Shown: positions 35,698-38,776 of the stretch, piece after piece | How positions within the stretch are numbered: the first letter of the stretch is position 1 | Layout: every line of letters begins with the position of its first letter | Source of the DNA: Bacillota bacterium | GTDB taxonomy: Bacteria; Bacillota; Sulfobacillia; Sulfobacillales; Sulfobacillaceae | Direction: 5' to 3' | Assembly: GCA_021792935.1 (NCBI GenBank) | Contig: JAJYTS010000007.1 | Coordinates: 1-40,510, forward strand | DNA: 40,510 bases | Position numbers and translations under genes: made by a program | Notes under the pieces: generated by a model | Databases searched by the model: none | The model's input: only the letters and a program-made list of their open reading frames with translations | What the model was told of the DNA's origin: nothing

Positions 35698-35832
35698 AAC
35701 CTCACCCCAAACAGCGACGCTAAAATTAATGGCGGCGACCACTTCCTTTAGAGTACCACAACCATTTAAGAAACTTAACAAATTGATAAAAGGAAGCCCG
35801 ATCGGGTTTGTGTAGTATTGCCGGAGTGGGAA

Positions 35833-36278
35833 TTAGACTTGCGCCAAATTAGTTGGCGTGCCCAAATCCGGCTCCGTGACCATCTGCGCCGCCTCGGGGC
35901 AAAACGGCGCTATCACGCGTCTTATATGGCCGTCGGGCATGAACTTCGCGGCGATATCTGAGACGTCGCAGTCTGGGTCCCAGCCACGCTCGCGGTCCAA
36001 CGACGCATCATCGATCCCACCGCACGCGAGGCGACCATCCTCGCTCAGTAATCAATCTCCGCACGGTATCGAGCCTAATTTGTGCACCCGGTGCATGCGG
36101 CGTAAGAACGGAAGCGGGAGAGTCCTCGTGAACTTGCCATGCGTGAAGACCCCCGGTCGAGCACGCACCTATCTAGTGAGACATCTCCCCTCGGATTGGC
36201 GAACTTGCGGTTATGCTCTCCTTCGAGAGCCACCAGCTCGCGTACACGAGAATGAACCGCCGTCGCCTCAACAATCCG
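35833..36278 (-). pseudogene. Coding-like remnant in two frames, function unrecognised
   Basis: Two adjacent minus-strand stretches look like protein but lack proper starts and lie in different frames. The first, 36075-36278 (67 codons), begins after a TGA and reads RIVEATAVHSRVRELVALEG then EHNRKFANPRGD. The second, 35833-36051 (72 codons), includes DVSDIAAKFMPDGHIRRVIA and ends at a TAA in an inverted repeat. They may be the worn-out end of one gene, perhaps a transposase, but I recognise no family. The opposite strand is open for 185 codons from 35858; its Ser/Pro/Arg-rich product looks like an antisense shadow. Confidence 0.3.
35842..35858. repeat. Inverted repeat CGCCAA-ATTAG-TTGGCG
   Basis: Six-base perfect arms around five bases, overlapping the last codons of the remnant frame that ends at 35833. 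It could be a mobile-element end or a weak transcription stop; there is no T-run on either side. Confidence 0.4.
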
Positions 36279-37030
36279 TCACAGGATTCCCCAAGGACCA
36301 GCGACCCCGTCCCGCCTGGGCCAGAATAGGCCAACTCAGACCTCGGACCTCGTCAAGGTTTCCCTCCGGCGGCTACGCCGACCTTGATGACCGACCTTGC
36401 ATAGCAAAAAAGTAGGCTATCTAGGTTGGTGTCTTCGCACGAGCAAACCGCATAAGTAGAGGGCTACGCAACTTTTAAGCAACATGCTTGGTTATGCTGG
36501 TCACCATGGCGCGATTTGTCATGGAGCAAAACGGGTAGCGTTAGGGCGGCACCGAGAATGATGGGGAAAGGCTAGTGCGCCGCTAGATGAGGTGGGTTAA
36601 GAATCCCACCCTTTAGCACTGGTTGACCAACAAAGACTGGCGCCAATATGTTCGCCAATAAAGAAGCCATAACAAAGAGAGAAGGCGCCCAGCATGAATC
36701 ATTATTGGTTGGCATTCCCACACGAGACGGTCAGATAGTGATTTATGACGTGTTTGAACTCTTTACCCTCGACAAGGTATTTGGGCGACTATTGCGCTTT
36801 TTAATCGGGGAGGCGGGCAATATTCCCAAAAGTCGTAATCTGGACACACTCTGAACCAAGAACGTTGCCGCCAGCTCCAACCGATTAGTTAATCAGAATC
36901 ACCCGTTTTCTGAACGACAAATGGTCTTGTAATGCATACATGCGTGTCAACAAGGTGGCATCGACGCACTTTGCCGATCACAAATGTAATTTTTCGATCC
37001 TCAAATCTCGTCGCTGTGCATAGCCGAAAA
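36279..37030. other. Low-coding region with one short open frame
   Basis: About 750 bases without a secure gene. The only protein-like piece is a 68-codon plus-strand frame at 36648-36854, whose middle reads LLVGIPTRDGQIVIYDVFEL; it has no clear ribosome binding site and may be a fragment. A hairpin GGTGGG/CCCACC lies at 36591-36610, before this frame. The region looks like decayed accessory DNA. Confidence 0.35.
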
Positions 37031-38087
37031 TCAAACTACAGTTCTACCTTCTGTGGCCCATAGCAAATCCCTGAAAACCAACACAGTTGCCCGCCGACCG
37101 CTACCCGGTATAAGTTGCGTTACTACGTTTTGCTCCTTTAACGCGGTAAGAAGTCTACGGGCTGTTGCCCCAGGGATTCCAGAACCTCGAATAAAATCTG
37201 AACTACTAAATACGGGCTTGGAAAAAATCCATTCCAATGCGCGAACAGCATATTGCGATCGGGTCGACTCTGGAATACTTAACTTCAGACTCTGGTAGAG
37301 ATCTTGAATTTGGATCACTTTAGCCAGATTATCCTCTGCCTGTGACCGTACACCCTCCAAAAAAAACCGGGACCACCCTACCCAGTCGTGATCACGTGAA
37401 ACGGCAAGAAGACGTTCGTAGTATTCTTCCCTACGCGCCTCGAAGAATGCGCTAATGTAAAACATCGGCCTCTGTATAATACCAGCTTGCCACAAAAAAA
37501 GTGGTACCAGCATGCAAAATGGCCATCTGCACAAGCCTGTCCATGAACTCTGAGTGTACAAATTTTTCCCAATCACTCATCGCATCGGGAAGTAGCTCCG
37601 CACTGATTGGCACGAAAGTTGCCTCATCTATCGAACACCCTGGCGGGCCAATCCAATTTTGAATTCGCCGGTATTCCCCGGGACTCTTGGATCGTCCCCT
37701 GACGTCCGACATCAAAACTTCATGGGCTTTGCGAATGAGTCGTTGCGATAATGGGATACTAGCCAAAAGTCCCTCGGCTTCATGCATAGCCGCACGATAA
37801 TTCAGCACCTCAAAAATGTCATTTCGACGTTCTGGAGACGAGGCCTCACGGACTGCTTCGAATTCAAGGACCTCGCCAAGCGTCGCTTGGGTTCCCTCGA
37901 TTCGCGAAGACAAAACAGCTTCTCGGGTGATCAAAGGAGCCAGCAAGAGATCCGGGCTAGGTATGGAGGACAACATGCCATCGTACCGCGCAACGGCCGC
38001 GTAAGCTGGCCCAATCAAGGGAATCAGACTTTCCCATGCCAAAGATTCGGGGGGGAATCGCCCCGTATGATATCTTACAGACGGCAT
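37031..38087 (-). pseudogene. Fic-family AMP-transferase gene, catalytic loop deleted and frame shifted
   Basis: The N-terminal half (ATG at 38087, GGAGG upstream) has the Fic N-domain with the inhibitory motif SSRIEG (S60...E64-G65) and runs through YRRIQNWIGPPGCSIDEATFVP up to LVQMAILHA near 37512. The next expected segment, ending in the Fic motif HPFxDGNGR, is missing. The sequence resumes in another frame with LVPLFLWQAGIIQRPMFYIS at about 37510 and continues through a C-terminal winged-helix-like part to 37031. Both halves otherwise align to one protein of about 370 residues. The join removes roughly 55-60 bases (inferred) and shifts the frame, so no active enzyme can be made. Confidence 0.85.
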
Positions 38088-38776
38088 CCCGCACCTCCAT
38101 TACACCACACCACACGGTGGCATATAGACTCAACTCGAACCACCACCACCGTAATGTGGAACATAAATGCAGTATACACAAAAAAACATTCCTTCTTTGA
38201 AAGCCTGCCATGAAGTGGTGAACTCAAGCTGATTTCATGATGTCCGCACCGCGTCTTAGGTCCCCTAACCGATCGGGAGCGTATATGATTTGAAAAAAGT
38301 TGCGACACTCAAGAGACGAAACGACATAAACCGCATGGAGTTGAGGCCCTTGAGGGCCACTCCCGGCTTGCGTTGGAGAGAGTGCGACTCGGCTTTGACA
38401 CAGTGGATGAAGCAGTCTGTCCCAATTGTTGATCCAGGAAAGAGCCGAAAAAATGCCGAGGAGATAACCGAGGTTACCTCAGCGGAAATACTTCTATGCG
38501 GCGCAAATCGCGCCCACCTTGGCTATGAAGCCGTAACTATGCTGCCCGAATGTTTAATGGCCAAGTGAAGCAGCGTCCACCTGGCGCAATAATTCAATCC
38601 GTTGAACGATAATCACCCCGCGAATAATGGAACTACCCGCATGTATCCTAGCGGATTCAGGCGTCGAACAGGCTCCGTCGCCTCTTTCGGATTTCATCGC
38701 ATACGGATAAAACTCTTAACAAACTCTAAAGCGACAACAACCATGATTAATATACGGAGCGAAAGGAGATTCCGGT
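38088..38776. other. Intergenic region between the fic remnant and the TPP enzyme gene
   Basis: About 690 bases between divergently oriented genes. A 92-codon plus-strand frame (38290-38568) begins at a TTG-like context with no ribosome binding site and shows no family features, so I do not call it. A TAATAT hexamer at about 38753 could be the -10 for the following gene, but no -35 is clear. Confidence 0.4.

Follow-up and report, generated by a model that had tools for sequence, protein, structure and literature searches.

A class II, SoFic-like Fic gene in the window, the 40,510-nucleotide stretch of Bacillota contig sequence analysed here, is very probably a young pseudogene, a loss-of-function allele of recent date. 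The gene was probably transferred, and was most likely broken by slippage between 6-nt direct repeats. The gene survives as two halves lying in two frames, and a single continuous frame over the Fic core and the C-terminal part is not present.

Gene layout and the missing stretch

The positions of the two halves and of the features around them are collected in Table 1. The N half carries a Fic_N domain (PF13784; E 1e-25, 90 bits against a cut-off of 26.7) at residues 24-104, including the inhibitory (S/T)xxxE(G/N) helix N-terminal to the core, which is present as SSRIEG. The Pfam Fic model is covered in this half over just the first 70 of its 93 positions. The C half corresponds to positions 207-338 of the SoFic model NF046030, so that the SoFic-type C-terminal region is present; a helix-turn-helix match (PF09339) in this half is weak and below its own cut-off. 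Comparison with solved structures gave SoFic (3EQX, 3ZCN) and the related adenylyltransferase 9VJC for the C half, and 7CB8, 9VJC and SoFic for the N half. The gene shares with SoFic, the class II Fic adenylyltransferase of Shewanella oneidensis (SO_4266), the Fic_N domain with its N-terminal inhibitory motif, the Fic core and the C-terminal winged-helix-like region, in the right order. Unlike SoFic, it has a deleted loop and a broken frame, and its halves score 35 and 60 bits against an equivalog cut-off of 550.

Table 1. Coordinates of the Fic gene, its parts and the neighbouring insertion sequence remnant in the window
Feature	Position	Strand	Description
Fic gene	38087-37031	-	two well-preserved halves, class II, SoFic-like
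Shine-Dalgarno-like GGAGGTG	38092..38098	-	directly 5' of the start codon, intact; read from sequence
N half	37509..38087	-	from the start codon through Fic_N (with SSRIEG) into the Fic core as far as ...MAILHA; 193 aa
N reading frame overall	38087 to 37452	-	211 codons
Deletion junction	37508..37513	-	ATGCTG in CATGCTGGTA; in relatives, near-copies spaced 56 nt apart stand on either side of the catalytic loop
Out-of-frame tail of the N frame	37452..37508	-	GTTFFVASWYYTEADVLH, then stop; 18 codons beyond the junction
C half	37034..37510	-	in the second frame, from LVPLFLW... through the winged-helix-like C-terminal region; 159 aa
Stop codon of C half	37031-37033	-	
IS110-family remnant, 3' part	35819..36452	+	83% identical to G001:C43; nearest recognisable feature downstream of the Fic gene

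In one scan of GTDB genomes, the C half returned 19 relatives at 42-62% identity, 18 of which have DNA over both halves. The Fic genes of Halomonas (L024, L025) and of a Coatesbacteria genome (L026) are 60-68% identical to the window gene in both halves and have the same lengths and boundaries, but they are intact, with HPFLDGNGR in frame. The N half is 68% identical to L026 and L024, and the C half 61% identical to L024.

The size of the gap was measured by tblastn of each half against the 18 relatives. In every one of them the spacing between the halves is exactly 54 nt (18 codons, consensus EFEALHPFLDGNGRLGRM), whereas in the window no bases separate the halves, and the final N-half codon shares 2 nt with the opening codon of the C half. 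The absent 54 nt and the 2-nt overlap together mean that 56 nt were lost, a number not divisible by three, and the frame is therefore broken. The catalytic motif HPFx(D/E)GN(G/K)R, in frame in 18 of 18 relatives, is absent from the window. The same 56-nt loss was found in none of the other relatives examined.

These results agree with the original prediction on several points. The Pfam, NF046030 and tblastn matches bear out the two preserved Fic halves with SSRIEG; alignment of both halves with the 18 relatives places the missing catalytic loop at the junction near 37510, as had been proposed; the earlier size estimate of 55-60 bases was right, at 56 nt by comparison with the relatives; and the frame is indeed shifted, the N frame running 18 codons past the junction to a stop at 37452.

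Several other Fic genes recovered in the searches are disrupted or unusual. Split genes with frameshifts outside the motif occur in L084 (G175:C65), L042 (a KSB1 MAG) and L007/L018 (G036:C118), and disruption of this Fic family is thus not rare in draft genomes. L010/L011 matches weakly, is partly broken and does not contain the motif, and L103 (G423:C1) is a full-length Fic frame whose motif, HPFLDGNGC, is missing the final arginine. The genome that carries the window also encodes a 130-aa Doc-like protein with HPFQDGNKR (L001, G000:C111:5405-5653) and a 267-aa protein with the divergent motif HQFFYDANKR (L002, G000:C66:4253-4531).

The junction and its probable origin

Read on the gene strand, the junction sequence is CATGCTGGTACCA, in which the C of CAT is position 37514. 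In the N frame the junction reads His-Ala followed by G, and all 18 relatives continue after the alanine with Glu (GAR); in the C frame it reads ATG-CTG-GTA, and ATG precedes the leucine position in 17 of the 18. These flanking codons predict ATGCTG on both sides of the deleted stretch. One copy is visible at the junction. We infer an ancestral direct repeat of two ATGCTG copies 56 nt apart, one of them now left, from residues conserved in relatives that are 48-68% identical to the window gene, whose own deleted stretch is unseen. At a spacing of 56 nt, 5 of the 18 relatives match in at least five of the six bases and 9 in at least four; across all positions of these genes, the corresponding shares are 0.8% and 4.9%. 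Repeats of this kind are short and common: the window gene contains 53 pairs of 6-nt repeats 20-200 nt apart.

Replication slippage between short direct repeats is most likely how the deletion arose, as far as can be read from the sequence, and would account for its clean edges. The replicating nascent strand would have slipped from the first ATGCTG copy, in the His-Ala-Glu codons before the loop, to the second, in the Met-Leu codons just past it, with loss of one copy and all intervening bases. The predicted product is a fragment of 211 residues that lacks the C half as well as the loop and the catalytic histidine. In ending at an inferred 6-nt direct repeat, with one copy left and the flanks undamaged, the lesion resembles those of slippage pseudogenes; the sole difference is its place on the active site.

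Amplification can also yield deletions between short repeats, and the assembly is incomplete, with 59.7% completeness in 141 contigs, so we considered that the contig might be 56 nt short through an assembly or sequencing artefact, or might represent a minority allele, with the organism or most of its population intact. A 6-nt repeat, however, is far too short to collapse an ordinary k-mer assembler, and this contig also carries long known genes (rpoB, rpoC, and those for elongation factors, ribosomal proteins and ABC transporters) whose frames are open. We consider such an error or minority allele unlikely.

The coincidence of a short direct repeat with the ends of the deletion might also suggest reversible on/off variation, as had been proposed, with deleted and intact alleles interconverting in the population. 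But unique sequence was lost along with one repeat copy, and reversion would require a donor. Neither a repeat array nor a donor copy from which the intact allele might be regained was found at the junction or in the incomplete genome searched, where the two other Fic-domain genes are of other types. What remains of the sequence does not allow the lost bases to be restored, and reversible switching, which we regard as having almost no likelihood, was rejected because of this loss of unique sequence.

A run of seven T residues (T7) lies at 37500-37494 within the out-of-frame tail, and the intact relative L032 has a T7 run too. Slippage on this run from the N to the C frame might still yield a Fic protein of full length that is catalytically dead but keeps its winged-helix-like C region, and the product would then be a regulator without AMP-transferase activity; we judge this very improbable. 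Restraint of AMP transfer by the inhibitory glutamate is expected, from the sequence, to be absent in a protein without the catalytic histidine.

Selection, chance and the state of the remaining gene

Apart from the deletion, the gene preferred here as a young pseudogene looks intact. There are no stops or further frame breaks inside either half, the C half has the length and end found in the relatives, and the ribosome-binding site, start and stop are kept. Where all other sequences share one residue, the window gene departs from it at 7 of 102 columns, on a terminal branch of 0.42, and the intact relative L029 at 8 of 103, on a branch of 0.43; this comparison rests on one intact relative of equal branch, and very recent breakage looks like intactness. 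The original prediction had described a lone evident lesion in the active site without scattered damage, and these counts agree with it. As no other decay is visible, the lesion looks recent. Every pseudogene starts from one lesion, however, so the contrast with scattered decay holds as a description only.

Could the place of the lesion reflect selection? Some Fic proteins (the FicT type) are toxic once their inhibition is relieved, and what was lost here is the catalytic loop, with the inhibitory motif and both halves retained, as might be expected if an active enzyme were harmful in this host and loss of its loop were favoured. Several observations weigh against such a history. The deletion is out of frame and so destroys the whole C half, beyond the active site alone; any nonsense or frameshift mutation would do equally well, and L042, L084 and L007 are broken at other sites with the motif intact. 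Strong selection against the enzyme is also not obvious, because wild-type class II Fic proteins are nearly inactive, held by their own inhibitory helix, with virtually no auto-adenylylation (PMC3667792).

Chance offers a sufficient account of the position. Across 16 intact relatives, pairs of 6-nt repeats spaced 20-120 nt apart would permit 699 deletions, of which 60 (8.6%) would strike HPFxDGNGR and 48% would shift the frame. With about 9% of such deletions striking the motif, the lesion's place needs no selection, and the loss of the motif is unremarkable, above all for a feature that was chosen as striking. Nothing, then, points to the selection against a toxin-like enzyme that had been suggested, given this proportion, the out-of-frame deletion and the putative repeat at its ends; we regard selected inactivation as improbable.

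Genomic setting and implications

No close copy of the Fic gene was found in seven other genomes of the genus or in 53 further relatives. Several genomes of the genus carry orthologues (73-77% identity) of the ABC transporter gene that flanks the locus on one side, and in the interval from this gene to the thiamine-diphosphate enzyme gene (38777) the only match to the genus is the IS110-family remnant. In G001:C43, which belongs to a genome of this genus, a PF02371/PF01548 transposase gene extends into the stretch that matches the remnant. Additional partial copies of the remnant occur in G001, G003 and G004. The approximately 1.3 kb around the Fic gene (36453-37030 and 38088-38776) contain no recognised genes and no genus matches, and Rfam gave no match within the window.

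The hosts of the Fic relatives are scattered (Halomonas, Coatesbacteria, Lentisphaerae and others). This scatter and the absence of the gene from the genus suggest that it was probably acquired by transfer. The relatives found on plasmids share less than 50% identity, and one scan of viral contigs returned no relative. With no close copy in the seven genomes of the genus and an IS110 remnant nearby, the gene looks accessory, and its loss would for that reason probably be tolerated by the cell.

For annotation, one pseudogene entry fits this locus, rather than two proteins. A literature search turned up no Fic pseudogenes with this motif. The lesion seems aimed at the active site, yet is accounted for by the DNA sequence: the codons for the conserved His-Ala-Glu and Met-Leu residues around the Fic loop tend to form a near-direct repeat with a spacing of 56 nt. 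The implication of this near-repeat flanking the loop is that Fic genes of this class may be prone to losing their catalytic loop by slippage.
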